Positions 45,244 to 62,648 of a stretch of DNA of 64,000 nucleotides are shown one piece after another. The position numbers and the translations under genes were made by a program. The stretch is from the NCBI GenBank assembly GCA_019352035.1, contig JABBNZ010000012.1:1-64000 (forward strand), written 5' to 3'. The notes beneath the pieces are model-generated. The model saw only the letters and a list, made by a program, of their open reading frames with translations. It made no database searches and had not been told where the DNA came from. Every line of letters begins with the position of its first letter. Position 1 is the first letter of the stretch. Source of the DNA: Pseudomonadota bacterium. Its GTDB lineage: Bacteria > Pseudomonadota > Gammaproteobacteria > Steroidobacterales > Steroidobacteraceae.

Positions 45244-45717
45244 TCACGCCAGGCGCGCCAGCAGGCTCGCCATCTCCAGCGCGGCCTCCATGGCCTCGCC
45301 GCCTTTGTTGCCGGCGGTCGTGGCCGCCCGCTCCAGGGCCTGCTCCACCGTCTCGACGGTGAGGACCCCGAAGATGACGGGCACGCCGCTCTCCAGGCTC
45401 GCGAGCTGCAGCCCGCGGGCGCACTCGCCCGAGACATACTCGAAGTGCGGCGTGTCCCCGCGAATCACGCAGCCGAGCGCCACGACCGCATCGTAGCGGC
45501 CAGACAGCGCGAGCCTGCGCGCGGCGACGGGCAGCTCGAACGCTCCCGGCACGCGCGCGATCAGCAGATCCTCGGCGGGACCGCCGCGCTCCAGCCAGGC
45601 CGCCGCGGCGCCCTTGAGGAGGCTCGCGACGATGAAGTCGTTGAACCGCGCGGCGACGATGGCCACCTTGCGCCCGCGCGTGGCGATCTCACCTTCCAGA
45701 ACACGTGGTGCGCTCAA
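45244..45717 (-). CDS. ribH: 6,7-dimethyl-8-ribityllumazine synthase
   Basis: VAIVAARFNDFIVASLLKGA, VPGAFELPVAARRLA, ALGCVIRGDTPHFEYVSGE. Confidence 0.95.
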   Translation of the reverse strand: MSAPRVLEGEIATRGRKVAIVAARFNDFIVASLLKGAAAAWLERGGPAEDLLIARVPGAFELPVAARRLALSGRYDAVVALGCVIRGDTPHFEYVSGECARGLQLASLESGVPVIFGVLTVETVEQALERAATTAGNKGGEAMEAALEMASLLARLA

Positions 45718-46904
45718 CCGTCCTCTCCGACATAGCTCTCGATCTCCAGGCCGAACGCGGAGATCCCGTGAATCTGCTTCGGTGCCGACAGCACCCGCAT
45801 CCGGCGCACACCAAGATCCTTGAGGATCTGCGCACCGATGCCAAAGGTGCGCAGTACCTCTCCATCGCGGCGCATACCCGGCGGCGGCGAGCCCGTTTCC
45901 GGCGCAGCGTCCGCAGCGTCCGGCGCGACCAGCGATCGCACCGAATCCAGCAGGTCATCCGGGGACTCGCGGTCGCGCAGGATCACGATGACGCCGTTGC
46001 CGGCACGGGCGATCCGCTCCATGGCCGCTCGCAGTGTCCATGCGAGGGGATCCGCGCGGATGCCGAGGAGGTCCCGCAGAGGGTCCACCACGTGCACGCG
46101 CACGAGAGGCGGCTCGCCGCCCTGCAGCTGCCCGCGGGTCAGCGCGAGATGCACATCCTGGCTGATGCGGTCCTCGTAGGCGTAAAGGATGAACTCCCCG
46201 AGCTCCGTCTGTACCGGCTGCGTCCTCACCCGCGCGACGGAGCGCTCGTTGCGAAGCCGGTAGCGGATGAGATCGGCGATGGTGCCGATCTTCAGGCCGT
46301 GGTGCCTGGCGAACGCCTCGAGCTGGGGCCTGCGCGCCATCGTGCCGTCATCGTTCATCACCTCGCATATGACTCCGGCGGCCTGCATGCCGGCCAGGCG
46401 GCAGAGGTCGACGGCCGCCTCCGTGTGACCGGTCCTCACCAGCACTCCGCCGCGGCGGGAGCGTAGCGGAAAGATGTGTCCCGGCCGTGCGAAATCGCTG
46501 GCCTGCGAGCGCTCGTCCGCCAGCGCGCGGATGGTCGCCGCGCGGTCGCCGGAGGAGACGCCTGTGGTCGTCCCGGCGCGCAGATCCACGGATATCGTGA
46601 AGGCCGTGCGGTGCGCTTCGCTGTTGCTCGCGACCATCTGCGGCAGGTCGAGCCGCGCGAGCCGCTCCTCCTCCATGGGCACGCAGATGATCCCGCTCGC
46701 GTGGCGGATCATGAACGCCACCGCCTCGGGGGTCGCGAGCTGCGCCGCCATGATGAGATCCCCCTCGTTCTCCCGGTCCTCGTCGTCCATGATGATGACC
46801 ATGCGCCCGGCCCTGAGATCGGCGACGATCTCCTCGACGGAATTCAGGCCCGCCGGGCCGGCCGGCGGCGCCGGCTTGCCGGAAAGAGGCAGGACTTTGG
46901 ACAT
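45714..46904 (-). CDS. ribBA: 3,4-dihydroxy-2-butanone-4-phosphate synthase / GTP cyclohydrolase II-like
   Basis: DDEDRENEGDLIMAAQLATPEAVAFMIRHASGIICV; C-terminal RibA-like domain QPVQTELGEFILYAYEDRISQDVHLAL. Confidence 0.92.
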   Translation of the reverse strand: MSKVLPLSGKPAPPAGPAGLNSVEEIVADLRAGRMVIIMDDEDRENEGDLIMAAQLATPEAVAFMIRHASGIICVPMEEERLARLDLPQMVASNSEAHRTAFTISVDLRAGTTTGVSSGDRAATIRALADERSQASDFARPGHIFPLRSRRGGVLVRTGHTEAAVDLCRLAGMQAAGVICEVMNDDGTMARRPQLEAFARHHGLKIGTIADLIRYRLRNERSVARVRTQPVQTELGEFILYAYEDRISQDVHLALTRGQLQGGEPPLVRVHVVDPLRDLLGIRADPLAWTLRAAMERIARAGNGVIVILRDRESPDDLLDSVRSLVAPDAADAAPETGSPPPGMRRDGEVLRTFGIGAQILKDLGVRRMRVLSAPKQIHGISAFGLEIESYVGEDG

Positions 46905-46927
46905 GGGGACGCCTCGAAGTAGTTGCC

Positions 46928-47095
46928 GAAAGACGCACGTTCACCCCGAATCATGAAGCGGCACGAACGCGTGACAGGCACACGGAGGTGCCCCGTCGCC
47001 GGAGGTGGCGGGCGTTGAGCCAAAAACCACGCCTTTTTTGGCTCAACGCGCGCTGGGCCGGGCAGGAGCCCGGATCCAGCGCTTCTTGATAGGGC
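46928..47095 (-). repeat. Dispersed repeat family I, copy B (medium form)
   Basis: CGTTCACCCCGAATCATGAAGCGGCACGAACGCGTGACAGGCACACGGAGGTGCC..; perfect 15-bp stem GCGTTGAGCCAAAAA/TTTTTGGCTCAACGC (47012-47026/47035-47049); ends GCCCGGATCCAGCGCTTCT. Confidence 0.9.
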
Positions 47096-47126
47096 ACCCC
47101 AGTATACCTGGGCGCCCCCTCCGGCT

Positions 47127-47651
47127 TTAGCTGCCCCGCGCCAGCAGCGGCAATACCGCCTTCTCGAGCGCCCGCGCGGAGACTCCCGCCGGCCCCTCGG
47201 CCTGCAGCTGCGCGCGCAGCACCCCCCGGGCATCGATCACGTACGTGACCGGGACCGCGACCGGCTCGCCGAAGCCATTCGCCCGCGCCCCGCTCGCCAG
47301 TGCGCCCGGATAGCTGAATTGCCGCATCACCTGCCTGACTTGGCCGTCATCCGGCGCCTGGTCGATGCTGAGGCCGAGCAGCTCGAGCCCGCGCGAGTGA
47401 TAACGGCGGTAGAACGCGTTGAGCGTCGGCATCTCCACGCGGCAGGGGGAGCACCAGGTGGCCCAGAAATTCACCAGCACGACCTTGCCGCGCAGCTTGG
47501 CGAGGTCGAACCGGTGGCCGTCGAGCTCCCGCACGATGAGGGCCGGAGCGGGTCTGCCCATCACGGGCGGCGCGCCGAGCGCGGGCATCGGTGCGCTGAG
47601 CACCGTGGCGGCGGCCAGCGCGGCGGCGAAGATGCGAGACCTCAGTGCCAT
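47127..47651 (-). CDS. TlpA-like exported thioredoxin-fold protein
   Basis: KVVLVNFWATWCSPCRVEMPTLNAFYRRYHSRGLELLGLSIDQ; signal peptide. Confidence 0.88.
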   Translation of the reverse strand: MALRSRIFAAALAAATVLSAPMPALGAPPVMGRPAPALIVRELDGHRFDLAKLRGKVVLVNFWATWCSPCRVEMPTLNAFYRRYHSRGLELLGLSIDQAPDDGQVRQVMRQFSYPGALASGARANGFGEPVAVPVTYVIDARGVLRAQLQAEGPAGVSARALEKAVLPLLARGS

Positions 47652-47713
47652 GGCAGCGCCTCCGGTGAAAGATACAGCGATCCTGCCACAGGTCGAGCGC
47701 CGCGTGGGCGGCC

Positions 47714-48733
47714 TCAGATGGGCCTAAACACCCAAACCGCCGCCGGCTGGCCCGAATGCGGTGGAACAGCCACGCACAGCTCGTCCAGGCCCGGCACGAA
47801 CTGCGACGTTCCCGAATGCGGTCCGGTGGGCTCCGTCGCTACCAGCGCGTAATGATCGGTATTGAGCTGCCGGTAGGCCTGCACGAAGCCTTGCAGGCTG
47901 GTCGTGTAGATCAGCCCTTGCGCCGCATCCAGGTACATGTCCTCGGTGGCATCCTTGCTCGGGAGACTTGCGATCACACGGCCCGTGGCGGTGTCGAGCA
48001 CATTGAACGTCGGCGGCCGGGGATCGCCCGCAAACGTGCGCGTGGCCACGAACAGTCGCCCGTGCGCCTCATCGAGGGCCATCGATGCCGGCCTGCCGGG
48101 CACTGACAGCCGCCTGACAATGCGCCGCGTATCGGTATTTACCACCGCCACCTGATCGAGCCCCGGAATGGCGGCGTACAACAGCGGCCTTCGCCGCGCC
48201 ATGACGAGTGCCGCGGCGCGATAGGCGGTGGCGATCCGCCCGACGCGCCTGCCCGTTGCCGGATCGATCAGCGCGAGCCAGCCGGGCCCGCGGTTGGAAT
48301 CAGTACCGCCGGACTCGACATAGAGGAGGCGGTGCCTCGGATCGAAAGCGATCATGTCCGCGCCGACGGAGACTCTGACCGTCGCGGCGGTCCGATAGCC
48401 CCGGCCGCTCAGAATGCGCACTACGCCGTCACGCCCGTTGGTGATCACCAGGCGATCGAACGACGGCACGAACAGCTCTCCCTGAGGTCTGTCGAAGCCG
48501 CCCGACAGGCGTCGGATGGCTCCGCCTTGGAGCGGCACCACGTACACACTCTGCTGGTCCTGGGCCGACAGGAACAGCCGGTCCGTTTTCGGATCGACCG
48601 TCATGTGGTCCCAGGTCCCGACCATGTGCGGTACGGGGATCTTGCCGGCCAGCTCGAGCGCCGGTGTCGCTGCCGCCGCAAAGCCGGGGGTCGCAATGCT
48701 TGCAGCGAACGCGAAGAGTACGAGGGCTCTCAT
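47714..48733 (-). CDS. Exported YVTN-like beta-propeller protein
   Basis: Signal peptide; GTWDHMTVDPKTDRLFLSAQDQQSVYVVPLQGG, VVNTDTRRIVRRLSVPGRPASMALDEAHGRLFVATR repeats. Confidence 0.8.
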   Translation of the reverse strand: MRALVLFAFAASIATPGFAAAATPALELAGKIPVPHMVGTWDHMTVDPKTDRLFLSAQDQQSVYVVPLQGGAIRRLSGGFDRPQGELFVPSFDRLVITNGRDGVVRILSGRGYRTAATVRVSVGADMIAFDPRHRLLYVESGGTDSNRGPGWLALIDPATGRRVGRIATAYRAAALVMARRRPLLYAAIPGLDQVAVVNTDTRRIVRRLSVPGRPASMALDEAHGRLFVATRTFAGDPRPPTFNVLDTATGRVIASLPSKDATEDMYLDAAQGLIYTTSLQGFVQAYRQLNTDHYALVATEPTGPHSGTSQFVPGLDELCVAVPPHSGQPAAVWVFRPI

Positions 48734-48752
48734 GATGAAATCTCCAAACGCG

Positions 48753-49820
48753 TTACATGGACGCGGGCAGCTTCTTCAGCTGCCTGGTCACGACGGACGG
48801 GGTGAGCGGCAGAAAGCTGCCCTCGCGCAGCACCTGCTCCTGGCCCTGGCGGCTGAGGATGTAGCGCAGAAACTCCACCACGACCGGGTCGGGCGCGATT
48901 TTCGGTCCGTCATTGATGTAGAACTTCACCGCGCGGGACAATGGATATTCGCGGTCCGCGACCTGGGCCAGGGTCGGCTCGATGTAGGGTCCCCCCGGGC
49001 CCACGGCGATGGCCACCAGCCTGGCATGGGGATTGCGGTAGCCGGCGGATGTCAGAGCGATGCCGTCCCGATCGGCGGCGACGGCGTCAACGGCGCGCTG
49101 GTAGCCGTTGATGCGCTTGCCGCCCGGCCCGGCGGCCCCGGCGAGTTGTTTCAGCGCACAGTTCCAGAGCGTGCTGCCGCGCATGACAGTCTGCGAGAAA
49201 TAGAACCACGGTGCCTCGTCGGCGGCCGGCCCGCTGTAAGGGTGCAGCGGACGGTTTTTCCACGAGCCTCCGAGCCCGAGCTGACCCCACGTGCGGATGC
49301 CGTGCGGCTCGCCCCGCGACTGCTGCGCGCCGAAGATCGCGGCGAGCTGCCTGAAGTCCAGTCGCGCGAGCGGATTGTCCCTGTTGACGAACACGCCCAG
49401 CGCCATGATCTTGTCGGGGTCGGTGTAGCTGCCGGTCAGCACGGTGACCGGGAATGGCTTCTGCCCGGCGACCTTCCGATAGGCCGCCGCCTCCATCGGC
49501 ACGATCTCGCGCGCCAGCACGCCGAGGTTGGCCCTGCCCGTGTACAGGCCCGCCATCGCGGCGCCGCTGCTGAGCAGATCGTCCCGGAACCTGACATGGG
49601 GCTGAAAGCGCTGAAATCCCTGCTCCCACTCGCGCATCATGACCTTCAGGAATCCGTGCCCCCAGCTGCGGATCGTGCCGCTCACCTGGCGGCGCGGTCG
49701 ATAGCCCGGCAGCGACTGCACGTACTGCGCCCAGGGCGGCACGGCCACCTCGTGAGAAGCCGCGCACGCAGCAGGCACGCCAAGGCAGAAGAGGATCAGA
49801 AACGTCAGTGCCGTTCGCAT
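48753..49820 (-). CDS. Secreted PstS/PBP-like substrate-binding protein 1
   Basis: YRPRRQVSGTIRSWGHG, IRTWGQLGLGGSW, REYPLSRAVKFYIND..VEFLRYILSRQGQEQVL. Confidence 0.82.
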   Translation of the reverse strand: MRTALTFLILFCLGVPAACAASHEVAVPPWAQYVQSLPGYRPRRQVSGTIRSWGHGFLKVMMREWEQGFQRFQPHVRFRDDLLSSGAAMAGLYTGRANLGVLAREIVPMEAAAYRKVAGQKPFPVTVLTGSYTDPDKIMALGVFVNRDNPLARLDFRQLAAIFGAQQSRGEPHGIRTWGQLGLGGSWKNRPLHPYSGPAADEAPWFYFSQTVMRGSTLWNCALKQLAGAAGPGGKRINGYQRAVDAVAADRDGIALTSAGYRNPHARLVAIAVGPGGPYIEPTLAQVADREYPLSRAVKFYINDGPKIAPDPVVVEFLRYILSRQGQEQVLREGSFLPLTPSVVTRQLKKLPASM

Positions 49821-51967
49821 GCGGATTCTCCGGGTCTGGCCCGCATCAGCGGAAGATAGCCGTCGCCGCCGTGAACCGCGGCCTGCCCCTTCGCGCTGAG
49901 GATGTAGCTCACGAACCTGCGGGCCTCGGACGGCGCCCCCGCGCCCGGATCGAGATAGGCGTAAACGTCACGGCCAAGCGGGTAGCAGCCCTCTCGGACG
50001 GTCGCCGCCGTGGGCAGCACATACGGGCCGGCCGCATTCACGCCGAGCGGCACCGGCTTTACCGGCCCTGCGCCGGGCGGCAGCCAGGCGATCGCCAATC
50101 CGTAAGGGTCACGCGCGAGCGCGCCCAGGATGCGGCTTCGAGTGTGGAGCACCGCCTCACTTTCGGGCGCGGCGCTCGCAACCTCGTTGATGCGCGGCCA
50201 CTCGAGCAGCGCGCTGCCTCCCAACACCGTTGCGCGCAGGAAACGCCCGGTGCCGCTCTCCGTGTCAGGCATATAGATCTCGACCGCGTGCCCCGCCCAC
50301 TTGCCGCGCACGCCCAGCTGACCCCAGGTGTGGATGCGCGGCACTCCTGGCGGCGGACGAGCCTCGATCAGTCCCTGAAGCTGCGCAAAGTCGATGCCTC
50401 GCAGCGGATTGTCGGCGTGGACGAACGCCACGAGCGCGGGCGACCTGCCCCGGCTCTCGAGACTGCCCCGCACAATCTCGACGCGCAGCGGCGGATGCCG
50501 GTAGACCCACTCGAAGGCCTTCAGCTCACTGCCGGTGGCGGCCCGGCCCATGAGAGCCACGTCCGCCTCTCCCGTGTAAAGACCCGCCATCCCGATGTCG
50601 CTGCCGGTCAGATGCAGGGCGACGCGCACATCCCGATGGCTCGCGCGAAAGCCTCTCGCCCAGCGGCGGGCAAGAGAGGCGAGCGCCGGGTTACCCCACA
50701 CCCGCAGCACCGCTTCGCCCGCGGCCGGCGCCCCCGGGCGGTCGAGGGACGGGACGGCAGGGCCGCGGATTTCAGGCGCCGCCTGCCGCGGGGGCGGCTT
50801 GCCATATGAGCAGCGTGCGGAGCCTGCGACACCACACGGCCGCGCGTCTCGAAGCTTCAGCCGCTGCTCGCGGATCTGCCGCCGCCCCAGCGGCAGATAA
50901 CCACTCTCCTCGATGAGCGCCCGCTGCCCCTGCCGGCTCAGGATGAAGCGCAGAAACTCCCGTATCGCGGGCGCGACCGGTTGGCCGGGCGCACGGTCGA
51001 TGTATGCCGGAATGATCCGCGTCAGCGGATAGCGCTCCGTGATCAGCGTCCGCGGCGTAGCGCTCACGTAGGGACCTGCGCGCGTGAAAGCGAGCTTCAG
51101 CGTCCTCACCTGCGGATTGGCGAAGCGGATGTTGGACACGGCAATGCCGTAGGGGTCGCGAGCCAGGGCCCGCAGAATCTGCAATCCCCGGTCATCGACA
51201 CCGCCTCCCGGCCGATCGAAGGTGACGAACTGGCGGATGCGCGGGTTCCAGCGATGGCTGCCTTCGAGCACCCGGCCGCGAAGGAACAGCGCGAAATCCT
51301 GGTTCACTTTCCAGAAATACGGATCGATGCGCCTGGGAGCCCACGCGCCCTTCAGTCCGAGCTGGCCCCAGGTGCGGATGTTGTGCTCCCCGCGCCCGTA
51401 CCGGGCACCGAGGATCGCGGCGAGCTGCCCGAGCGAGAGCCGCTCGATCGGATTGGTCCGATCGACGAACACCATGTGGGCATAGTCGAAGTAGTTGGTC
51501 TCGAGACTGCCGGTGGCGATCTCGATGCGCGTCGGTGCGTAGTGGCGAGCCCGCTCGAAGGCCCGCTTCCCGGCCGGGCTCAGCTCCTCGCCCAGGATGG
51601 CGAGATTGCCCGCGCCGCTGCAGAGCGCGCCGATGGCCGAGGCGGTTCCGTACATCCTGTCGACGATCCGGACACCGGGCTCGTAGCGGCGAAATTCCGC
51701 ACTCCATCGGCCGACGAGCCTGCCGAGGAAATCGTGCTCGGGACTGCCGTGGCCCCACAGGCGGATGGTGCCCGTGACCTGCGCGCGCGGCCGGTAGGAC
51801 GCCAGTGAGTCGACCACCTGCACGGCATACGGCGGCGGCGCGAATCGCGGGCCGCCGCCCAAGTCGGCGGCTTGGCCCGCGGCCGCGGCGGTCAGCGCGG
51901 CAAGCGCCAGGACGAGCTGCGGGCGAGCCCGTGCGGGCCGGCCCGCGTGCCCGCCCTGACGGCTCAT
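49805..51967 (-). CDS. Two-domain fusion of PstS/PBP-like substrate-binding proteins
   Basis: Domain 1: YRPRAQVTGTIRLWGHG..IRTWGQLGLKGAW..FLRFILSRQGQ; domain 2: AVLRVWGNPALASLARRW..IHTWGQLGVRGKW..FVSYILSAKGQ. Confidence 0.82.
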   Translation of the reverse strand: MSRQGGHAGRPARARPQLVLALAALTAAAAGQAADLGGGPRFAPPPYAVQVVDSLASYRPRAQVTGTIRLWGHGSPEHDFLGRLVGRWSAEFRRYEPGVRIVDRMYGTASAIGALCSGAGNLAILGEELSPAGKRAFERARHYAPTRIEIATGSLETNYFDYAHMVFVDRTNPIERLSLGQLAAILGARYGRGEHNIRTWGQLGLKGAWAPRRIDPYFWKVNQDFALFLRGRVLEGSHRWNPRIRQFVTFDRPGGGVDDRGLQILRALARDPYGIAVSNIRFANPQVRTLKLAFTRAGPYVSATPRTLITERYPLTRIIPAYIDRAPGQPVAPAIREFLRFILSRQGQRALIEESGYLPLGRRQIREQRLKLRDARPCGVAGSARCSYGKPPPRQAAPEIRGPAVPSLDRPGAPAAGEAVLRVWGNPALASLARRWARGFRASHRDVRVALHLTGSDIGMAGLYTGEADVALMGRAATGSELKAFEWVYRHPPLRVEIVRGSLESRGRSPALVAFVHADNPLRGIDFAQLQGLIEARPPPGVPRIHTWGQLGVRGKWAGHAVEIYMPDTESGTGRFLRATVLGGSALLEWPRINEVASAAPESEAVLHTRSRILGALARDPYGLAIAWLPPGAGPVKPVPLGVNAAGPYVLPTAATVREGCYPLGRDVYAYLDPGAGAPSEARRFVSYILSAKGQAAVHGGDGYLPLMRARPGESACERH

Positions 51968-53244
51968 CGCGTCAATTGCTCGACGGGCCTGCCGGCCTCC
52001 AGAGCATCGAGCCGCCGCGCCTGCTCGGCGGCCACCTTCGCCGTGAGCGGCAGGTATTTGCCGTCGCGCTCGACCAGCTCCTGGCCCTGCCGACTCAACA
52101 CGAAGCGGACGAACTCGTAGATCTTCCGATCGAGCGGCCGGCCCGGCTTGGCCTCCACCCAGAAGGACTGATCACCCCAGAGCGGATAGGAGCGGTTCTG
52201 TTCGGTGTCGAGAGTCAATGGAACGTACGGCCCGGCCGCGGTGCTGGCAACCGCCAGCACTTTGACCGACTTGGGCAGCTCCTCGTGGTAGCGGATGTAG
52301 CCGATGCCGCCGGGGTCCCGCGCCACGTGGTCCATGATCTGATCGCTCTCGAGATAAGTCCTGCCGTCCCGCTTGTAATTGCCGAACGCCAGCAGATTCC
52401 CGTTCCACTTATCGCTCGACATCAGCACGTCATCTGAAAACTCGAGCGCCGTCGAGTAGCGCAGGCTGAAACCGTACGTATCCACGGGGCGGTCGGTCCA
52501 CGCCCCCGTGAGGCCCACCTGGCCCCAGCGGCGGATGTTCTCCTGCGGACCGCGCGCGAACTGCGGATGCCACGTGGATCCCACCCATCCGCCGGCGCGC
52601 CGCGACCCGAAAATATCATCCAGCTGCCGCATCGTGACCCCGGTCAGGGGATTGGCGGCGTTGACGATGATGGCGAAGGAGTTCTGCCAGCCGATCACGT
52701 CGTAGGATCCGGTGACCACCGAGATATCGGTCGGCAGATATCCCTTCAGGCGCAGGTTGGACAGATCATCGTAGAACAGCGCCTGGTGTCCTATGCCGAT
52801 CTCGCCCCGGTTCTCGTACAGGCAGGGGATCGCGTTGGCGGCAGTCAGCAGGTGATAGACGATCCGGATCCCCGGCTGGTACTTCTCGAAGGCCTTCTTC
52901 CACCAGCCCCCGAGCGGCGAATCGCCGATGTAATTGTTGCCGCACACGGTGAGGGTGCCGTGCGGATGAGACCTCGGCGCGTAGCCGGGCAGACCGCTCA
53001 GGTCGAACTTCTTCGTATAGAAACGCGAGTACGCCACCGCGTGCATGCGCGCCCTGCGCTCCGCGGCCGAGCCATGCGGGAACTTCCTCGATTGCGCATT
53101 CGAGCGGTAGAGCTTCAGCCAGGGCGCGGACTGTCCGCTGGACTGTCCGCTGGACTGGGGCGCCGCGGGTGCCGGCGCGGCCAGGACGAGCGGCAGCGCC
53201 GCGATGCCGAGCAGAGACAGATGTAACTTCTTCACAAGACTCAC
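51964..53244 (-). CDS. Secreted PstS/PBP-like substrate-binding protein 3
   Basis: Signal peptide; YAPRSHPHGTLTVCGNNYIG, IRRWGQVGLTGAW, RSYPLWGDQSFWVEAKPG..FVRFVLSRQGQELV. Confidence 0.82.
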   Translation of the reverse strand: MSLVKKLHLSLLGIAALPLVLAAPAPAAPQSSGQSSGQSAPWLKLYRSNAQSRKFPHGSAAERRARMHAVAYSRFYTKKFDLSGLPGYAPRSHPHGTLTVCGNNYIGDSPLGGWWKKAFEKYQPGIRIVYHLLTAANAIPCLYENRGEIGIGHQALFYDDLSNLRLKGYLPTDISVVTGSYDVIGWQNSFAIIVNAANPLTGVTMRQLDDIFGSRRAGGWVGSTWHPQFARGPQENIRRWGQVGLTGAWTDRPVDTYGFSLRYSTALEFSDDVLMSSDKWNGNLLAFGNYKRDGRTYLESDQIMDHVARDPGGIGYIRYHEELPKSVKVLAVASTAAGPYVPLTLDTEQNRSYPLWGDQSFWVEAKPGRPLDRKIYEFVRFVLSRQGQELVERDGKYLPLTAKVAAEQARRLDALEAGRPVEQLTR

Positions 53245-53263
53245 CTCGAGGGGGATCGGCGCC

Positions 53264-54469
53264 TCAGTCGAGCTTCTTCAGCTGCTTCTTGATGTAGGAC
53301 TCGGGCAAAGGACTGTAGATGCCCTGCTTGCGGATGATCTCCTGGCCCTGCCGGCTCAGCACGTATCGGATGAACTCCCGCACCGCCGGAGTGAGCGCCC
53401 GCCCCGGCGGCTTGTTGACGTAGATGTACGCATCGCGCGTCAGCGGATAGCTCCGATTGCGCACGTTCGCGGCGGTCAGCGGGATCGCCGGCCCGTCCGC
53501 GGTCGCGGAAATCGCCAGGATCCTGATGTTGGGATAGGAATGGCACTTTGTGCCGTCCGGATTCACACACGTGCCGTCGACGTGCATGAGAGCGCCCCAG
53601 CCGATGGCGTACTTGTCCTTGCTGATGGCCGCGTACATGCGCTGGCTCCAGACCTTTCCGCCCTCGGCGTCCGCGGTGGCCTCCTTCTCCTCCACCACCT
53701 CGCGGAAGTTCGGATTCCACTTGTCCGACCAATGCATGACGTGCCGCTCGAAGCTCACCTCGAATCCGGGCGCGACGTAACCCCAGGTCTGGATCTTCTT
53801 GCGGGCCCAGCCGCCCTTCAGGCCGAGCTGCCCCCAGGTGCGGATGAGGCTCTTCGCGCTCTGCGCGTATTTGCCGGTGTAGAGGATCGCATGCTGCGGG
53901 CCACCCACCACCCAGCCGCCGGTGCGCTGGGCGCCGAAGATCTCACTCAGCTGTCGCATCGACAGATGGGTGAGCGGATTGTCCTTGTTCACCATGATGG
54001 CCCAGGCATACAGGCACCCGCGCATGTTGTAGCAGCCCGTCGCCACGGAAATTTCCGTCGGCGTATAGCCGTACGTGTTGTAGAAGGGCATCTGGTCGGT
54101 GATCTTGGCGTCATCGCCCATGGGCGCGACATCCGAAACGCCGGCGTACATCATCCCGAGCGCGCCCTCGCTCTCGGTCTGGAAGTTTCCCGAAAGCTTC
54201 GCATCCGGCTGCGCCTTCTCGAAGCCCTTCATCAGCGCCGGGATCATCCCCATCAGCGGGCTGCCGGCGATGCGCAGCGGCCCGATGATGTGGTACTCGG
54301 GCTTGTATCGAGGCACCTGACTCAGAACCGGCTCCTGCGCGTGAGCGAGCGCCGACAGCGCCAAACCGGCCAAGGCCAGCGCGAGCCCGGCCGCCCCGTG
54401 TCGCCGGGAGGGGGTGTCGCCGGCGAAGGCCGGACCGGGCACGCGGGCCGAGGAGAAGCGCTTAGTCAT
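53264..54469 (-). CDS. Secreted PstS/PBP-like substrate-binding protein 4
   Basis: ATG at 54469 (MTKRFSS); signal peptide; YKPEYHIIGPLRIAGSPLMG, IRTWGQLGLKGGW, RSYPLTRDAYIYVNKPPG..FIRYVLSRQGQEII. Confidence 0.82.
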   Translation of the reverse strand: MTKRFSSARVPGPAFAGDTPSRRHGAAGLALALAGLALSALAHAQEPVLSQVPRYKPEYHIIGPLRIAGSPLMGMIPALMKGFEKAQPDAKLSGNFQTESEGALGMMYAGVSDVAPMGDDAKITDQMPFYNTYGYTPTEISVATGCYNMRGCLYAWAIMVNKDNPLTHLSMRQLSEIFGAQRTGGWVVGGPQHAILYTGKYAQSAKSLIRTWGQLGLKGGWARKKIQTWGYVAPGFEVSFERHVMHWSDKWNPNFREVVEEKEATADAEGGKVWSQRMYAAISKDKYAIGWGALMHVDGTCVNPDGTKCHSYPNIRILAISATADGPAIPLTAANVRNRSYPLTRDAYIYVNKPPGRALTPAVREFIRYVLSRQGQEIIRKQGIYSPLPESYIKKQLKKLD

Positions 54470-54546
54470 GTTCGATGGGTCTCCAAGCTGCTGAAAGAAT
54501 CGGCGCCACGGCCGGGATTGCGCCCCGCCGCCCGAGGGTCCGCCGG

Positions 54547-56718
54547 TCAATAGAAGCTCCTGCTCAATGTCAGGGAAACGTTCCGGGGATTGCCCGGCGT
54601 GATGCGCACGGCGCTGAAGGCGCTCTGGTAGTACTGCTTGTCGAGCAGGTTCGAGACCTTGAACGAGACACTGTAGGTATCGGCGTCGTAGTAGAGGCCC
54701 GTGTCGACCGTGGTGTAGCCGGGCATGATGAAGTCGTATGCGAACGCGGCGTTCGGGAGATTGCCGACCCTCTCGGAGCGGTAGATCACTCCCAGCATCC
54801 ACCCGATGTTGCTGAAGCGGCCTGGAAGCTGGATCCGCGAGAGAATGCTCCCGCTGTTGCGCGGCGCGTTGAGCGGCATCGAGCCGACATCGGCCTTCGC
54901 GGCATTCGCAATGATGCGGGCATCGACGAGGGCGTAGTTGGCGCTGAGCTGCCACCAATTGGTGGGCCGGAAATCGAGCTCGAGCTCCGCGCCGCGGCTG
55001 CGCACGGCCCCGATCTGCTCGTAGAGGCCCGTGATGCCCACCTCCTGGATGAGGTTGACCTCCTTGATGTTGAACAGTGACACCGTCGCCGTGGCCCTGC
55101 CGCCCGTGCTGGCGAACTTGGCGCCCACCTCCTCCTGGGAGGCGGTCTGCGCCTGCAGCGTCTGACCGGGGACGACCGACTGCGCGGTGGGCGATGGCGG
55201 CACGAAGGAGGTGCTGTAACTGGCGTAGAGCGACCATTGCTCATCGGGCTGATAGATGACCCCGCCCATCGGGAGGGCGGACGTGAAGCTTCTGGACCGG
55301 GTCGGCTTCACCAGCCGCAGGTCCTTCTGTTCCTCCCGGACTTGCTGGTAACGGGCGCCGACCACTCCCTTCCAGTGCCGCGAGAATGTGAGCAGGTCCG
55401 TCGCATAGGCGCCGTACGCCTTCGCCGTCGCCCACTCGTGCGCCTGGGGCGGCTCCGTGGCCGGGGGCGTGTCGCTGTAGCCGATGACCGGATCGTAGAT
55501 ATTGATGTCGAGCAGCGGGCTCTTGAAGTCGCGGATCCGGTTGTAATCCTCGATCGTCTGCCCGTAGGTGACGCCGGCGAGCAGCCGGTGGGCGATCGGT
55601 CCGGTATGGAACAGGTCCGTGGCCGAGGTATCGATGAAGTTGATGTGGTGGTGATTGTCCTGCTGACGGTCGACGCGCTCCAGGGTCGTCAGATTCTTCA
55701 GCACCGTGCCGTTGTCGAAGCCGGTCTCATAGTCTTCCGAGTACACCGAGCGCGCGTTGAAGTCCCAGCTGAGCGAGTGGGAGAAGGCGTGATGCACGAG
55801 GAGGGTGGCCGTCTCGCCCTTCTCCATCTCCTTGTCCTGCGGATTCTGATATCGGGTGCTGATCGGCGCGATGAGCTGGCTCTTGAAGGCCGGCGCCACC
55901 AGGCCCTGGTCCCAGCTGTCATTGCCGTGGCGGAATTCGAGCAGCAGTGTCGCCTTCGTTCGGGCGGAGACGTTCCAGGTGAGGCTCGGCGCGAACATGA
56001 AGTCCTTGTCGAGCACGAAGGCTCGGAAGGACTGCTGGTTCGTATACTGCACGATGGCCCGGCCGAGGAACCGGTGATCGCCGTCCAGGGGACCGGTGGT
56101 ATCGACGATGCCCGTGTAGCCGTTCTTGCTGCCAAACGGGATGCCGTCGCCGGCGAAGGTGTTGGCGCGCAGATCCACGCTGGTCTCGTAGTGGCCCTGC
56201 GGCTTCTTGGTGATGAGATTGATGAAGCCGCCCGGCTGATTCTGACCATAGAGCACGGAGGCGGGGCCCTTCACCACCTCCACCCGCGCGATGTCGGCGG
56301 TTTCGGGTGAGGCAGTGCGTGCCGGCAGGCCCGGAAGCCCGTCCATGAGCACGGAGTTCGGATCCGTGGAGCCGCTGGTGAAGCCGCGGATCGTGATGTC
56401 GTAGCCCGAGGGACCGGCGCGCTGCACATCGGACATGTAACCGTAGAGATCGGTGAGGCGGGTCGTGTCGACCGCCTGCATGAACGCTTGGCTGTAGTTT
56501 TCGAGGGAGAACGGCACATCGCGGACCGGAACGTTCATCTTCAGGCCGCTCTTTCCGCCCGGCCGGATGAAGTTCGCGCTCACGGTGACCTGCTGCAGCT
56601 GCAGCGCCGGTGCCGCCGGGCCGGCCGCGGCGTTTTGCGCCGCGGCGACTGGCGCCAGAGCGCAGCAGGACGCCGGCCCGAGAATGAGTCCCGCAATCAG
56701 CTTGATTCTGATCGTCAT
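54547..56718 (-). CDS. TonB-dependent receptor (siderophore-receptor type)
   Basis: Plug ADIARVEVVKGPASVLYGQNQPGGFINLITKKP; beta-barrel repeats; terminal aromatic LTLSRSFY; signal peptide. Confidence 0.92.
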   Translation of the reverse strand: MTIRIKLIAGLILGPASCCALAPVAAAQNAAAGPAAPALQLQQVTVSANFIRPGGKSGLKMNVPVRDVPFSLENYSQAFMQAVDTTRLTDLYGYMSDVQRAGPSGYDITIRGFTSGSTDPNSVLMDGLPGLPARTASPETADIARVEVVKGPASVLYGQNQPGGFINLITKKPQGHYETSVDLRANTFAGDGIPFGSKNGYTGIVDTTGPLDGDHRFLGRAIVQYTNQQSFRAFVLDKDFMFAPSLTWNVSARTKATLLLEFRHGNDSWDQGLVAPAFKSQLIAPISTRYQNPQDKEMEKGETATLLVHHAFSHSLSWDFNARSVYSEDYETGFDNGTVLKNLTTLERVDRQQDNHHHINFIDTSATDLFHTGPIAHRLLAGVTYGQTIEDYNRIRDFKSPLLDINIYDPVIGYSDTPPATEPPQAHEWATAKAYGAYATDLLTFSRHWKGVVGARYQQVREEQKDLRLVKPTRSRSFTSALPMGGVIYQPDEQWSLYASYSTSFVPPSPTAQSVVPGQTLQAQTASQEEVGAKFASTGGRATATVSLFNIKEVNLIQEVGITGLYEQIGAVRSRGAELELDFRPTNWWQLSANYALVDARIIANAAKADVGSMPLNAPRNSGSILSRIQLPGRFSNIGWMLGVIYRSERVGNLPNAAFAYDFIMPGYTTVDTGLYYDADTYSVSFKVSNLLDKQYYQSAFSAVRITPGNPRNVSLTLSRSFY

Positions 56719-56990
56719 TGCGATCCCCCTGCGCGGCCTTCGATTTTTGCCGCTTCGTATACCCGCATTCTTGGCGCGGCGCGCTCCCCTGGCGATAACC
56801 CCTTCGGGCTAGGCCGCGGCCGGGCGGGCGATCCGGCCCGGGCATCGCCGCCCGCCGCCGGGGCGACGGGGTCCGCCGCCCGGCGCGATTTCAGGATTAT
56901 TTAATCTGGCCATGATGCAATGACCGCGAGCCGGATCCCGGTCGCTGACCCGGGCTTCGCGGCGAGACTGTCCATTGGGGGGGGTGGAGC

Positions 56991-57704
56991 ATGACGGCGG
57001 ATCGCGCCAACGAGGCTTCCTCGGGGCCCGCAGCCCCGGCCAAGATCATCATCGCGGATGATCATCCGCTGGTGTGCGCGGCTCTGACGCACACCCTGCG
57101 CGCGGCAATGCCTTGCGCGACGGTGCTCACGGCCGCCAGCCTGAGTGCCGTCGAAGCTGCCCTTGCAGAGCATCCCGACCTCGACCTGGCCCTCCTCGAT
57201 CTGCACATGCCCGGGGCGCGGGGATTTTCCGTGCTCCTGCTGCTTCGAGGTCAGCGCCCGGAACTGCCGGTCATCGTCGTCTCCTCCAACGACCATCCGC
57301 GCACGATTGCCCGCGCCCGGCAATTCGGCGCTGCGGGATTTCTACCAAAATCCGCCCCAATCGCGGAAATGCTGGCCGCGATCGCCAGCGTGATGGCCGG
57401 AGGGGCCTGCTTCCCCCGTCATGAGGTAATGCGCTGCGACGACGATGCGAAGCTCGCCGCGAAACTCGCGCAGCTCACACCGCAACAGATGCGCGTGCTC
57501 ATGTGCATCGCCGACGGCTTGCTCAACAAACAGATCGCGCACGAGTTGCGCCTCGCCGAAAACACCGTCAAAGTGCACGTCGCCGCCGTGCTGCACAAAC
57601 TGGGCTGCCATACCCGCACGCACGCCGCTCTGCTCGCCAAATGCCTCGAGGCTGAAGGCCCCGCGCCCCACCGCATCGTCCCCGAAGCCATCGGCGCAAG
57701 TTGA
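56991..57704 (+). CDS. LuxR/NarL-family response regulator
   Basis: IIIADDHPLVCAALTHTLR, LALLDLHMPGARGF, LTPQQMRVLMCIADGLLNKQIAHELRLAENTVKVHVAAVLHKLG. Confidence 0.93.
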   Translation: MTADRANEASSGPAAPAKIIIADDHPLVCAALTHTLRAAMPCATVLTAASLSAVEAALAEHPDLDLALLDLHMPGARGFSVLLLLRGQRPELPVIVVSSNDHPRTIARARQFGAAGFLPKSAPIAEMLAAIASVMAGGACFPRHEVMRCDDDAKLAAKLAQLTPQQMRVLMCIADGLLNKQIAHELRLAENTVKVHVAAVLHKLGCHTRTHAALLAKCLEAEGPAPHRIVPEAIGAS

Positions 57705-57742
57705 GGCCGGCAAAGCGCCTCCTCTTGATCGAGGCTCCGAGC

Positions 57743-59923
57743 TCAAACGCGCGACGCGCTGCGCGTCAGCATATGCGCAACCGCCGCCCGAAGCTTCGAT
57801 GGACTGGCCGGCTTTGCGAGAAAGCCCCACCCGTTCGCCTGAATTTTCTGGCGCACCGCCGGATCCCGCTCGGCCGAGACGACCAATACCGGCACCTCGG
57901 CACCCCACATGCGGAACAATTCGGGCACCCACTCGGGCCCGGTGCCGTCCGGCAGCCGGTAATCCAGCAACAGCAGGTCCGGCGCCTGCGCATCCTCGGC
58001 CGCGACCCGCAGCGCCTCCTCCCCGCTGGAGGCCAGCACGACCTCGCACCCCCATCCGGTCAGGAGGCCCTGCAGGCTCTCACGTACACGAGGATCGTCC
58101 TCGACCGACCAGATGCGGCGGCCCCGCAGCGGCATTGAGTCATCATGCATCCGGGCCTGCGCGCGGCTCGGCTGTGGATCGCGCGATGCAAGCACTTTCC
58201 CCCTCGCCGCCGCTTTGACCAGCGGCACCTCGACGAAGAACACACTGCCCAAGCCGCGCCAGGAGCGCAGGCCGATCCGGTGCCCCAGGCGCTTCGCGAC
58301 CCTCTCCACGATTGCGAGTCCGAGACCGGCGCCGCCCCCGGCCGGCTGACCGGAGTCCAGTCGCTGAAACTCGAGAAAGATCCGGCGATGATGCTCCGGT
58401 GCGATGCCCGGACCGCTGTCCCAGACCTCGATCCGCAGCGACCCGCCGGCACGGCGGCATCCCATGAGAACACGGCCGCGGCGACTGTAGCGTACTGCGT
58501 TGGAAAGGTAGTTTTGCAGGATGCGTCGCAGCAATGCCTCGTCAGAGTGGATCACCGCGCCGCACCGCATCACGCGCAACCGGATTCCGCGGGCACTCGC
58601 AATGATGCCGAACTCCCGCCCGAGGGTCTCGAGCAACGTGTGCAGCTCGAAATCACGCTCATGTACCTCGAATGTGCCCGACTCGAGCCGCGAAATGTCG
58701 AGCAGGGTCGAGAGGATCTCATCCTCCGCCTCGAGCGCGCTGTCGATGCCACTCAGCACCTCCCTGTCTGCTGGTGACGTCAGACGCGCACGCGCGGCAT
58801 CTACGAACATACGCGCAGCATTGAGAGGCTGCATGAGATCATGGACCGCGGCGGCGACGAAGCTCGTCTTCGACCGGTTGGCCTGCTCGGCTTCCGCTCT
58901 CGCAGCTTCGAGCGCACGGGTGCTCCGAGCGATGCGCCGTGCGAACCCGCGCGCAACCAGCGCCGAGATCCCCGTCACGGCCAACGTGGTCAGGCCCAGC
59001 AGCAGCCACGCATAGCGGTTCGCCTGCGACACCGCCGCCATGCTCTCGGCCTGCTGTTGTTGCGCGACGACGATCCAGCCAAAGTCTGTATGGCGAATTT
59101 GGGCGATCCTGGCGGAGCCCCTGAATCGGTAATGATAAAAGCCGTCGCCGCGTTGAGCGGCGGCGTACGCCGGACGGCTGCGAAAGTTGCGCAGCCTGCT
59201 CAGCATCGCCACACCCCGGTCCGCGATCAGCAGACCCCGGTTGGTCATGAGGAAGGCGTGACCCGTGCGTCCAAGCCGCGCGGACGTCACCGCTTGCGTG
59301 ACATGGTCGAGGGTCGCGGCCTCGATCAGCATGCCCTCGAGCTTGCCGCCGGGTGCCTTGATGGGGACGGCCAGCAGCAACGCCGGAAGATGTGACGTGC
59401 GCCCGATCTGGATCTCCACGCCGTAGGGCCTGCCGACCAATAATTCCCTGAAGTACTCCCTGTCGCCATACCAGTTCGGGCGGCGGCCGTCGCTTCGCGC
59501 GACGTTCCAACCCGTCAGATTCACCGTATGGATCAGGTAAGCCCAAGGAAGCTGGGCGCTCAGACTCTTGATGGCGCGCTGCTGCAGCCGGGCATTCATG
59601 GAGCGCATCGACGCCTCGCCCGCGGCGAGCTGGAGAACCGAGAGGTTCAGTCGAATCCAGTCATCGACCTGCTGAACCGCTCTGTCCGCGAAGAGCTGCA
59701 GCCGCTGGCGCGCCTCGACCTCCCCGTTGTTGATCATCCGCTGCCGTTCGAGCTGCCAAAACGCGGTGAGCGGCAGCAGTGCGACCAGGAGCAGCGCGAT
59801 CAGCAGGCGCGGGAAGATGCCCGCACCGAGCCGCCAAAGCCCTCGGCGGGGGCCGCCGCCGCCCTCCCCGGCTCCGCTCACGGCGGCACGATCGATCGTG
59901 GACTTGGAACCGAGAAGAGTCAT
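57743..59923 (-). CDS. Hybrid sensor histidine kinase (Cache-like sensor, HisKA, HATPase, C-terminal REC)
   Basis: NWYGDREYFRELLVGRPYGVEIQIGR sensor; SKTSFVAAAVHDLMQPLNAARMFVDAARARL H-box; VWDSGPGIAPEHHRRIFLEFQR; DLLLLDYRLPDGTGPEW. Confidence 0.9.
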   Translation of the reverse strand: MTLLGSKSTIDRAAVSGAGEGGGGPRRGLWRLGAGIFPRLLIALLLVALLPLTAFWQLERQRMINNGEVEARQRLQLFADRAVQQVDDWIRLNLSVLQLAAGEASMRSMNARLQQRAIKSLSAQLPWAYLIHTVNLTGWNVARSDGRRPNWYGDREYFRELLVGRPYGVEIQIGRTSHLPALLLAVPIKAPGGKLEGMLIEAATLDHVTQAVTSARLGRTGHAFLMTNRGLLIADRGVAMLSRLRNFRSRPAYAAAQRGDGFYHYRFRGSARIAQIRHTDFGWIVVAQQQQAESMAAVSQANRYAWLLLGLTTLAVTGISALVARGFARRIARSTRALEAARAEAEQANRSKTSFVAAAVHDLMQPLNAARMFVDAARARLTSPADREVLSGIDSALEAEDEILSTLLDISRLESGTFEVHERDFELHTLLETLGREFGIIASARGIRLRVMRCGAVIHSDEALLRRILQNYLSNAVRYSRRGRVLMGCRRAGGSLRIEVWDSGPGIAPEHHRRIFLEFQRLDSGQPAGGGAGLGLAIVERVAKRLGHRIGLRSWRGLGSVFFVEVPLVKAAARGKVLASRDPQPSRAQARMHDDSMPLRGRRIWSVEDDPRVRESLQGLLTGWGCEVVLASSGEEALRVAAEDAQAPDLLLLDYRLPDGTGPEWVPELFRMWGAEVPVLVVSAERDPAVRQKIQANGWGFLAKPASPSKLRAAVAHMLTRSASRV

Positions 59924-60005
59924 TGAGTCGATCTTGCTCGCTCCCGGACCGGTCTGCTCGGTCGCCAAGTATCTTGGGCGAAAGACCCGTGTCGCAGTCC
60001 CTGGC

Positions 60006-60620
60006 TCACCGCGGCTGTTGCAGCGAAGCAGCCTCCCCCAGAAGCCGCTCGACATATCGGGCGATCTGGTCGATCTCGATGTTGACCCGAGTACCGAGCC
60101 GGAGGGCTCCGAGCGTGGTCACTTCCTGGGTGTGGGGGATGAGGTTGACGCCGAACGTGGCACCCTGGACTTCGTTCACCGTGAGACTCACGCCGTCGAG
60201 GGTGACGGAGCCTTTGCGGGCGATGTAGCGGGCCAAGGCGGGCGGCGCGGCGATCTCGATTCGGGTGGAGCGCGCATCGCCGCTGATCGCGGCAATCCCG
60301 CCCACGCCGTCCACGTGACCGGAAACCAGATGCCCGCCAAGGGGATCGCCCGCCTTGAGCGACGGCTCGAGATTGACCGGCGAGCCGGGTGTCAGATCAC
60401 CGAGCGTCGTCAGCGAGAGGGTCTCGCGAGACACGTCCGCGGCGAACGTGCGATCGCGCAGCTCGACTGCCGTGAGGCAACAGCCCTGCACACAGATGCT
60501 GTCGCCGACGTTCATTCCAGATGAGTCGAGTCTATCGAAAGCGATCAGCAGCCGGTCATCTCCACCGCGAGCCTCACGACTCAACACCCTGCCGACGTCT
60601 TGAACGATGCCTGTGAACAT
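60006..60620 (-). CDS. ribE: Riboflavin synthase alpha subunit
   Basis: MFTGIVQDVGRVLS, GCCLTAVEL, GGHLVSGHVDGVG, TLDGVSLTVNEV. Confidence 0.96.
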   Translation of the reverse strand: MFTGIVQDVGRVLSREARGGDDRLLIAFDRLDSSGMNVGDSICVQGCCLTAVELRDRTFAADVSRETLSLTTLGDLTPGSPVNLEPSLKAGDPLGGHLVSGHVDGVGGIAAISGDARSTRIEIAAPPALARYIARKGSVTLDGVSLTVNEVQGATFGVNLIPHTQEVTTLGALRLGTRVNIEIDQIARYVERLLGEAASLQQPR

Positions 60621-60640
60621 TCGCTGCCGTCCTCTTGTTT

Positions 60641-60880
60641 AGAAGCGCTGGATCCGGACTTTGCGCTGCGCAGTCCCTGCTCCGCGCAAAGCTCCGGGGT
60701 GTCCATCCATGGCCACCCGTGCGACGCATGCGTCGCACCCTGCCCGGTCCAGCGCGCCGCGGGCAAAAAGCGCGGTTTTTTGCCCCCGGCTCCGCCACCT
60801 GGCGGCGGCGAGGCACCTCCGTGTGCCTGTCACAGGCTCGTGCCGCTTCACGATTCGGGGTGGACGAGCGTCCATGGGCA
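60641..60880 (+). repeat. Dispersed repeat family I, copy C (long form, inverted relative to A and B)
   Basis: AGAAGCGCTGGATCCGGAC..GTGCGACGCATGCGTCGCAC (20-bp palindrome 60719-60738)..GGGCAAAAA/TTTTTGCCC stem..GGCACCTCCGTGTGCCTGTCACAGGCTCGTGCCGCTTCACGATTCGGGGTG. Confidence 0.9.
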
Positions 60881-60881
60881 A

Positions 60882-62048
60882 CTACTGCAGGGCCTGTCGC
60901 GGGCGGAGGCGCAACCGTATGTCTTCACCGATCTGACGCGTGTCGACCACGATGAAGCCGGGCGCTTCGTGGAGATTGCGCAGCTCCCCCATCTCGACCA
61001 GCGGCCGCGCCTGGGGTCCGAGCAGTTTCGGCGCGATGTAAAGGATCAGCTCATCGACGAGCCCCTGGCGCAGCAGCGCCCCGGCGAGACCGGGTCCCGC
61101 CTCGACCCACAGCTCGTTGATCTCACGCCGGCCGAGCCGGTCGAGCACATCGGGCAGGCTCAGTCGGGCCCGGCCGGGGCCCGTCGCCGGCGCAGCGCCA
61201 TGCTCCGCAGGCACCTCCTCGATTTCGGCGCCGCGCTCCGCGAGCCCAGCGTGCCGGGTAGCGCGCGCGGTCTCCATTTCGCGGTGATCTGCCGCAGTCA
61301 TGATGAGAACGCCGCCGCCGGTCCCCAGCATCCGCGCGCTCGGCGGAGTCTGCAAACGGGCGTCGAGAATGACACGCAGGGGCGCGGACCGCGGGCCTGC
61401 GGCAGGAGGGTCCGGCAGCCGCACATCGAGCCGCGGGTCATCCGCGAGCACCGTGCCGATGCCCGTCAGAATCGCAGAGCTCCGCGCGCGCCAGTGCTGC
61501 ACGTCCTCGCGGGCGGGCGGTCCGGTGATCCACTGGCTCTCGCCGTTGGCGAGTGCGGTGCGGCCGTCCAGACTCATCGCCAGCTTCACCCGCACCCACG
61601 GCCGGCCGCAGCGCATGCGCTTGAGGAATCCGGGATTGATCTCGGCGGCTTCGGCCGCCATCAGACCCGAATCGACCGCCACACCTGCGCGGCGCAACGC
61701 TTCCGCCCCCCGGCCGCTCACGCGCGGATTGGGATCTTCCAGAGCAAATACGACGCGCGCCACGCGTGCGGCGATCAATGCATCGATACACGGGGGCGTC
61801 CGGCCATGATGGCTGCACGGCTCCAAAGTGACATAGGCGCTAGCGCCGGCAGCCTTGCGTCCGGCCACACGCAGAGCGTTGATCTCCGCGTGAGGCGCGC
61901 CCGCGCGCTCGTGCCATCCCTCGCCGACTACCTCCTCACCCTGTGCGATGACGCAGCCGACCCGCGGGTTTGGATGAGTCGTCTCGAGACCGCGCTCGGC
62001 GAGCTCGAGCGCGCGCGCCATCGCTCGGCGGTCAAAGTCCGTGAACAT
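60882..62048 (-). CDS. ribD: Bifunctional diaminohydroxyphosphoribosylaminopyrimidine deaminase / 5-amino-6-(5-phosphoribosylamino)uracil reductase
   Basis: HPNPRVGCVIAQGEEVVGEGWHERAGAPHAEINAL, VTLEPCSHHGRTPPC, KLAMSLDGRTAL. Confidence 0.96.
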   Translation of the reverse strand: MFTDFDRRAMARALELAERGLETTHPNPRVGCVIAQGEEVVGEGWHERAGAPHAEINALRVAGRKAAGASAYVTLEPCSHHGRTPPCIDALIAARVARVVFALEDPNPRVSGRGAEALRRAGVAVDSGLMAAEAAEINPGFLKRMRCGRPWVRVKLAMSLDGRTALANGESQWITGPPAREDVQHWRARSSAILTGIGTVLADDPRLDVRLPDPPAAGPRSAPLRVILDARLQTPPSARMLGTGGGVLIMTAADHREMETARATRHAGLAERGAEIEEVPAEHGAAPATGPGRARLSLPDVLDRLGRREINELWVEAGPGLAGALLRQGLVDELILYIAPKLLGPQARPLVEMGELRNLHEAPGFIVVDTRQIGEDIRLRLRPRQALQ

Positions 62049-62060
62049 CGGCCGGCCCTC

Positions 62061-62648
62061 TCACTTGTGCCCTTCCTCCGCGCCGCGCTCCTGCGAGGGC
62101 GGCGACTCGGGCGGCAGCAGGGAGAGCTGGTCGCGGTCCTGCGCCGGCTGCCGCGTTGCGGGGCGCTTCGGCTCGCGCGGCCCCGGCGTGGCCAAGCTCG
62201 GGTCGCGAAGCCTGCGGATCTCCTCGTGGAAGGCTTCGACATCCTCGAAGTGCCGGTAGACGGATGCGAAGCGCACGTACGCCACTTCATCGAGCTGCCG
62301 CAGCTCCTCCATGACGAGCTCGCCCACGGCCCGTGACGGCACTTCCCGATCACCGAGAACGCGCACCTTGTGCGCAATGCGGCTCACCGCCTCATCCACC
62401 TGCGCGCGTGGCACCGGACGCTTCTCGAGCGCTTTCTCCATGCCGGAGCGCAGCTTGCCTTCGTCGAAGGGCTCGCGCGTTCGGTCGCCCTTGACGACCA
62501 TGGGCATCACGAGCTCGGCGGTCTCGAAGGTCGTGAACCGCTCGCCGCAGGAGAGGCACTCGCGGCGGCGGCGGATCTGCCGCCCTTCGCCGGCCAGGCG
62601 GGAGTCGGTTACCTTCGTCTCGATGTGGCCGCAGAATGGGCAGTACAC
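62061..62648 (-). CDS. nrdR: Transcriptional repressor NrdR
   Basis: [45 protein letters not shown]. Confidence 0.96.

Follow-up and report, generated by a model that had tools for sequence, protein, structure and literature searches.

The riboflavin operon of a Steroidobacteraceae bacterium (GCA_019352035.1) is split between ribE and ribBA by a block of genes encoding a TonB-dependent receptor, PstS-like binding proteins and a kinase–regulator pair. The block lies in a 64,000-nucleotide stretch (contig 9 of a 4.5 Mb draft assembly; JABBNZ010000012.1, positions 1–64,000), hereafter the window. On the minus strand the genes run in the order glyA, nrdR, ribD, ribE and then, after a gap of 13.1 kb measured from the start of ribBA to the stop of ribE, ribBA, ribH, nusB and thiL; the assembly contains a single match to ribE and a single match to ribBA. 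Here we argue that the ribE–ribBA junction is probably an insertion and replacement hotspot of the genus and that the 12.4 kb found in the window is one cargo, a putative regulated uptake module.

The interrupted ribE–ribBA junction

The genes glyA (62652–63905), ribD on the upstream flank (60882–62048; RibD_C and dCMP_cyt_deam_1), ribE (60006–60620; two Lum_binding domains), ribBA on the downstream flank (45714–46904; DHBP_synthase and GTP_cyclohydro2) and thiL (43822–44796) were all identified by Pfam, and the distance between ribE and ribBA bears out the original prediction that a large block separates them. The other flanking genes, nrdR (62061–62648), ribH (45244–45666) and nusB (44801–45241), were named from their open reading frames and conserved positions in relatives rather than by family search. 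Compared with the empty site of a close relative, G072, homology ends at 47621 and restarts at 60039, so that the insert comprises 47622–60038, about 12.4 kb. The limits first proposed for the block (46905–60640) do not stand: they take in ribE, and the gene for a TlpA-like thioredoxin (tlpA; 47127–47651, minus strand; AhpC-TSA), which had been counted as part of the block, lies outside the insert and is a pre-insert resident of the junction.

Reading from the ribE side, the block begins with a hybrid histidine kinase (57743–59968, minus strand) in which Pfam recognises dCache, HisKA, HATPase and receiver domains and which scores 376.1 bits against the NahK/ErcS-like model NF041832, under the cutoff of 400. 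The response regulator that follows (56991–57704, plus strand) was called as an open reading frame and assigned to the LuxR type from its translation rather than from a Pfam scan; its homologues adjoin the kinase in G063, G049 and G005. With the regulator in the opposite orientation, a single transcript running from ribE to ribBA is unlikely. All the remaining genes of the block are on the minus strand. The TonB-dependent receptor (54547–56718; Pfam Plug and barrel) is of the siderophore-receptor type, scoring 265.7 bits against TIGR01783, above the cutoff of 223.5, but it differs from the receptors of that family in preceding an array of binding proteins and not an ABC importer. Four PstS-like periplasmic binding proteins (PBPs), one of them a fusion of two domains, make up this array and span 48753–54469. 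PBP1 (53264–54469) matches PF12849 with 39.3 bits and TIGR02136 below cutoff; PBP2 (51964–53244) reaches 26.0 bits against the PF12849 threshold of 27 and matches a profile of PDB entry 4OMB with an E value of 2.9e-35; PBP3 (49805–51967), the fusion, matches PF12849, TIGR02136 in three stretches and 4OMB (E 2.3e-32); and PBP4 (48753–49820) matches PF12849 with 37.3 bits. A beta-propeller protein, weakly of the YncE/PQQ-associated type (47714–48733; TIGR03866 E 4.5e-10, below cutoff; PDB 1L0Q E 4.1e-8), completes the block.

Ancestral order of the junction

Fifteen genomes from other families of the same order were sampled, one of which (G026) had neither gene; in all 14 that have both, ribE and ribBA are separated by −4 to 162 bp. 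In G072, ribE, tlpA and ribBA lie within 0.6 kb and ribE and tlpA overlap. Because the ribE stop overlaps the tlpA start in block-free relatives (G072, and clade C genomes such as G020), tlpA must have been at the junction before the block. Ancestrally, ribE and ribBA were contiguous, with the order ribE–tlpA–ribBA in part of the genus. The interruption is not shared by all relatives, as would be expected had it been ancestral, since the outgroup pairs are adjacent, and the proposal that the block was inserted between ribE and ribBA is supported both by these 14 genomes and by the empty site of G072. That it was inserted as one unit, as was also proposed, is not supported: tlpA was there earlier, and the kinase, the regulator, PBP1 and the flanking genes do not share the history of PBP2, PBP4 and the propeller.

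Variable cargo across the genus

The genus (soil bacteria of a Steroidobacteraceae lineage) was represented by 58 genomes, mostly drafts, of which several are titled as metagenome assemblies, with contamination of up to 6%; earlier draws of 40 genomes overlap this set, and all genus counts are taken from the 58. The two genes lie on one contig in 38. The 20 genomes outside this gap count comprise nine with the genes on different contigs (G012, G013, G017, G019, G043, G049, G065, G069, G070), one with ribE only (G009), five with ribBA only (G014, G022, G048, G064, G071) and five with neither (G005, G007, G008, G015, G062). Across the 38, the gap is 70–119 bp in six and at least 335 bp (hence above 300 bp) in 32. 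It exceeds 12 kb in five (the window, G063, G003, G040 and G045), which hold their large inserts within single contigs, other large inserts being split over contigs. As a control we took the seven other junctions nearby, which run from glyA to the protein-kinase-like gene that follows thiL: they exceed 400 bp in 0 of 24–48 loci, as against 30 of the 37 ribE–ribBA loci with both genes in one stretch.

Different species carry unrelated gene sets at this position. It is filled by tlpA alone in 12 one-contig genomes (G004, G020, G023, G024, G051, G052, G055–G059, G072) and by a ~290 amino acid protein of unassigned family, sometimes accompanied by tlpA, in nine (G001, G002, G016, G021, G040, G041, G047, G060, G061); the copies in G021 and G041 share just 32% and 28% identity with the G001 protein. 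The copy at L055:2585–3454 gave no match when scanned against Pfam and NCBIfam, and its homologues are found between ribE and tlpA or ribBA at L056, L065, L076, L121, L132, L134 and L135. G003 carries a phage-like element with a tyrosine integrase, AAA_25, a resolvase and a phage terminase. G040 has, besides the ~290 amino acid protein, an outer-membrane barrel protein, a kelch/TIG protein, an acyl-CoA dehydrogenase, a TPR regulator and others, whilst the cargo of G045 comprises a two-component pair, ketoacyl synthases, alcohol dehydrogenases and an AMP-binding enzyme and that of G054 includes CPT and DUF7065 genes. A PepSY_TM–Fer2 reductase lies between ribE and the kinase in G069, and the junction contigs of G017, G019 and G070 carry receptor genes or fragments.

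Integration hotspots of bacterial chromosomes hold variable gene content between conserved core genes. The ribE–ribBA junction resembles them in its conserved flanks, in the non-homologous cargo found from species to species and in the integrases that stand at its edge in some genomes, with the empty site preserved in G072 and in 14 of 14 outgroup genomes; it differs in that the site is the ribE 3′ end, inside the riboflavin operon. Our searches, which covered the literature in part, returned no description of a ribE integration site or of a ribE–ribBA hotspot.

Upstream of tlpA (window 47560–47800) we noted a conserved CTGTGGCA(G/A)(C/G)AT-like motif, found at the same place in G063, G069, G054 and G064. 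It is present in cargo-bearing clade A genomes and absent from the empty G072, and could possibly be a new promoter for tlpA–ribBA.

An integrase attachment site at the ribE 3′ end

In two relatives, G003 and G017, a tyrosine integrase gene begins immediately after ribE. When the junction loci were scanned in all six frames for the conserved RibE end, two displaced RibE tails ending in a stop came up besides ribE itself, in exactly these two genomes; two more motif matches, in G072 and G049, have no stop nearby. In an alignment of 160 positions that reaches the ribBA start, the displaced end of G003 and the spacer after it agree at 130 with the native ribE end and spacer of G018. The left and right attachment sites (attL and attR) share a 7-base core over the codons of the ARY motif, TGGCGCG in G003 and TCGCCCG in G017, and the attB used by these integrases corresponds in the window to the 3′ end of ribE (about 60006–60065), the edge of the hotspot. 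The two ends of the G017 element are on different contigs, with a receptor gene and a gene for a 271 amino acid protein on the host side of attR. These features identify the conserved ribE 3′ end as the predicted attachment site of a tyrosine integrase in both relatives. As in Arm-DNA-bind_3/Phage_integrase elements that target the 3′ ends of genes, the integrase stands beside its site and the target end is duplicated; the differences are that the target is ribE and that the window's block has no integrase.

The G003 and G017 integrases are 54% identical (58% over the part matched), and other integrase matches in the 58 genomes reach at most 45%, or 42% for those of full length. Only G003 matched at E 1e-90 among 396 order-level genomes, and relatives in viral contigs reach just 35%. 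There are no tRNA or Rfam matches in the window, and thus no tRNA attachment site there.

The block in the window might itself be a degenerate element of this kind, which entered at the ribE attB and then lost its integrase. It occupies the same junction, directly 3′ of ribE, as the G003 and G017 integrases, and the 3.6 kb gap of G010 contains sequence resembling the short repeats beside them. However, neither the window's block nor that of G063 yielded a displaced ribE tail, an att repeat or a mobility gene, and on its far side the block ends at tlpA, not at an element end; we consider this origin possible but rather doubtful. Several of our results also tell against the wider hotspot reading where the window is concerned. 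Pfam found no integrase among the scanned open reading frames of the block, and the search for an att repeat or a displaced ribE tail there found nothing recognisable, the best match to a ribE tail being at the level of shuffled sequence. Nor does the block have the foreign composition that the original prediction had suggested looking for: its GC is no outlier, and its GC3 (0.77–0.89) falls within the range of the flanks (0.77–0.94), for which reason composition was rejected as a mark of foreign origin.

A dispersed repeat of ~150–170 bp with an internal hairpin-like stretch is found between tlpA and ribBA (approximately 46910–47086, minus strand), between ribD and ribE in the opposite orientation (approximately 60641–60875, plus strand), and also at 25772 and 36290; the window scan gave no Rfam match to it. 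Since the first two copies bracket the segment from ribE through the block to tlpA, inverted repeats of ~170 bp could conceivably have mobilised or rearranged that segment. This is very improbable. The 20-base end of the repeat occurs 74 times across the genome when up to two mismatches are allowed (0 for a reversed control), so that a nearby pair is no surprise; ribE, which lies within the bracket, is oriented as is ribD outside it; the edges of the insert are tlpA and ribE, not the repeats; and G063 has the block with less than 60 bp between ribD and ribE, leaving no room for a repeat there.

Mosaic origin of the block

Seven of the 58 genomes have block genes on the same contig as ribE or ribBA: four in clade A (the window, G063, G069 and G064) and three in clade B2 (G014, G022 and G049). 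The receptor of G063 is reduced to about 110 residues, and G064 keeps just the receptor end, adjoining tlpA. Trees of the flanking genes place the window in clade A, a grouping with B2 being rejected by the approximately unbiased (AU) test (p 5e-12), and the kinase, the regulator and PBP1 have histories in line with this placement. Contrary to the flanks, the window's copies of PBP2, PBP4 and the propeller group with those of G014 and G049. For these three the species grouping was rejected (p 0.0085, 0.0013 and 0.0035, respectively; AU tests on block history selected after the identity table had been inspected), whilst for PBP1 it was not. Synonymous divergence (dS) points the same way. Between the window and G014 it is 0.63 for PBP2, 0.53 for PBP4 and 0.54 for the propeller, against 1.01 for ribBA and thiL; between the window and G063 the corresponding values are 0.95, 0.85 and 1.19, against 0.74 for ribBA and 0.65 for thiL. 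Trees and dS together indicate that the two clades have traded a segment inside the hotspot, and with it part of the window's cargo. The receptor tree is compatible with both histories, and PBP3 is distant from all compared copies. The empty G072 falls inside clade A (p 0.076 for a first-branching position) and may either have kept the old state or have lost the block.

These results bear on a simpler account, in which one module was inserted once in the ancestor of the block-bearing species and has since undergone only vertical descent and loss. In its favour, the kinase, regulator and PBP1 track the species relationships and a single clade of clade A block carriers is not rejected (p 0.24). 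Against it, the block is present in G014, G022 and G049 and absent from their sisters G003, G018 and G053, and a clade uniting these three with the clade A carriers is rejected (p 0.0005), so that losses are needed. The grouping of the window's PBP2, PBP4 and propeller with G014 and G049 also conflicts with vertical descent, as does unrelated cargo at the same place in other species, and we regard a one-time insertion as unlikely.

The PstS-like arrays

The PBPs share a fold family and overall alignment with the PstS phosphate-binding proteins (TIGR02136; 4OMB, 4PQJ), but form a tandem array of diverged subtypes with an altered ligand loop, lack accompanying ABC genes and adjoin a TonB receptor. 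All four fall short of the TIGR02136 cutoff of 206.6, with 56.4–112.7 bits. The Arg…SGT segment of 4OMB, which we take to have a role in phosphate binding, is missing or replaced in PBP1, PBP2, the N-terminal half of PBP3 and PBP4, the C-terminal half of PBP3 keeping SGT only. A phosphate-scavenging system, composed of the PstS-like proteins and the receptor, is what the family name and the nearest solved relatives, the phosphate-binding proteins 4OMB and 4PQJ, would suggest. The low family scores, the replaced segment, the lack of pst ABC genes among the Pfam matches in the block and the carboxylate genes that accompany related arrays elsewhere (see below) all speak against such a function, which is improbable.

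Relatives of the block occur in Acidobacteriota, Verrucomicrobiota, Eremiobacterota and Streptomyces. Among named genomes, those of PBP2 are found in Acidobacteriaceae (best 59–63% identity), Opitutaceae, Eremiobacterota and Streptomyces; at E 1e-40, the only one of 369 drawn Gammaproteobacteria genomes to match was the window's own. The window's ribBA is 48–55% identical to that of other families of its own order. PBP2 being closer (62%) to a protein of another phylum than ribBA is within the order, transfer between phyla seems likely. No relatives of PBP2 were found in viral contigs, and plasmids yielded only six distant records (best identity 44%). In a tree of 147 domains, the PBP1, PBP2, PBP3 and PBP4 types each group across phyla. 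Very long arrays, of 14 and 12 PstS-like domains in tandem, occur at the Opitutaceae loci L168 and L173; an NMT1-like protein is also encoded there, and a TonB receptor fragment lies at the edge of the locus. Several related arrays have a TonB receptor or PepSY reductase nearby.

In several genomes of the genus, at L088, L082, L084, L085 and L091, a TonB receptor about 40% identical to that of the window stands beside a single PstS-like protein, and such a pair is a possible two-gene ancestor of the arrays. The literature covered in part by our searches held no matching description of PstS/TonB arrays.

Likely substrate

Seventeen related array loci were examined, 15 by Pfam and two by deposited annotation, with part of the neighbours of each scanned. 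Di- or tricarboxylate genes lie beside eight. The G005 array, whose regulator and kinase are homologous to the window's (57% and 51%), has TctC and SDF; SDF and 2HCT accompany the L167 array, a citrate lyase alpha subunit L160, malonate decarboxylase alpha and CitG L161, a CitA/DpiA-like pair L172, TctABC L164 and a 2CSK_N kinase L217. The eighth, a second array in the window's own genome (contig 115), adjoins malate synthase, isocitrate lyase and a PepSY reductase. No such genes were among the scanned neighbours of the other nine (L158, L162, L163, L165, L166, L168, L173, L218 and L219).

The 2CSK_N domain is associated with TctE and sCache_3 with CitA. Related arrays resemble tripartite tricarboxylate transport and CitA/DcuS or TctDE sensing in adjoining TctABC or CitA-like or 2CSK_N kinases, but the window's block differs in having no TctAB and an unrelated dCache hybrid kinase. 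From these neighbourhoods we infer, with moderate confidence, that the block is a putative module for uptake and sensing of a carboxylate or iron-carboxylate. Certain observations count against this assignment: 8 of 17 is a raw count without a background rate, no di- or tricarboxylate gene is present in the window's block, NMT1-like and RND efflux genes are likewise found close to arrays, and the PepSY reductase is absent from the block.

The contig 115 locus (L080, 28000–45371) encodes malate synthase, isocitrate lyase, PepSY_TM, three PstS-like proteins, a 2OG-Fe(II) oxygenase and a DUF3612 regulator; L170 and L175, from two other species, have gene sizes like those of this set.

Proposed mechanism and implications

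Cargo may have reached the junction on integrative elements, whose integrases would later have been lost, or by homologous recombination between the conserved rib flanks. In the module carried by the window, the TonB receptor would import a carboxylate or iron-carboxylate across the outer membrane, the specialised PstS-like proteins would bind the ligand in the periplasm, and the dCache hybrid kinase and LuxR-type regulator would sense it and switch the module on. We tentatively suggest, as one conceivable history rather than the expected one, that the PstS-like arrays, in which four or more subtypes have stayed together in Pseudomonadota, Acidobacteriota, Verrucomicrobiota, Eremiobacterota and partly Streptomyces, are a single horizontally spread apparatus for the capture and sensing of di- or tricarboxylates, perhaps with metal, and that species of the genus have swapped it with other cargo at a ribE hotspot seeded by ribE-specific integrases.

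What looked like a one-off oddity in a single genome appears instead as a general pattern, in which a core biosynthetic operon tolerates repeated large insertions at a single junction, and the 3′ end of ribE can be newly named as a predicted integrase target. The binding-protein array, which seems to be widely transferred, is one that annotation would assign to phosphate, whilst its neighbourhoods often point to organic acids and iron; such arrays may be relevant to carbon and iron uptake in soils.

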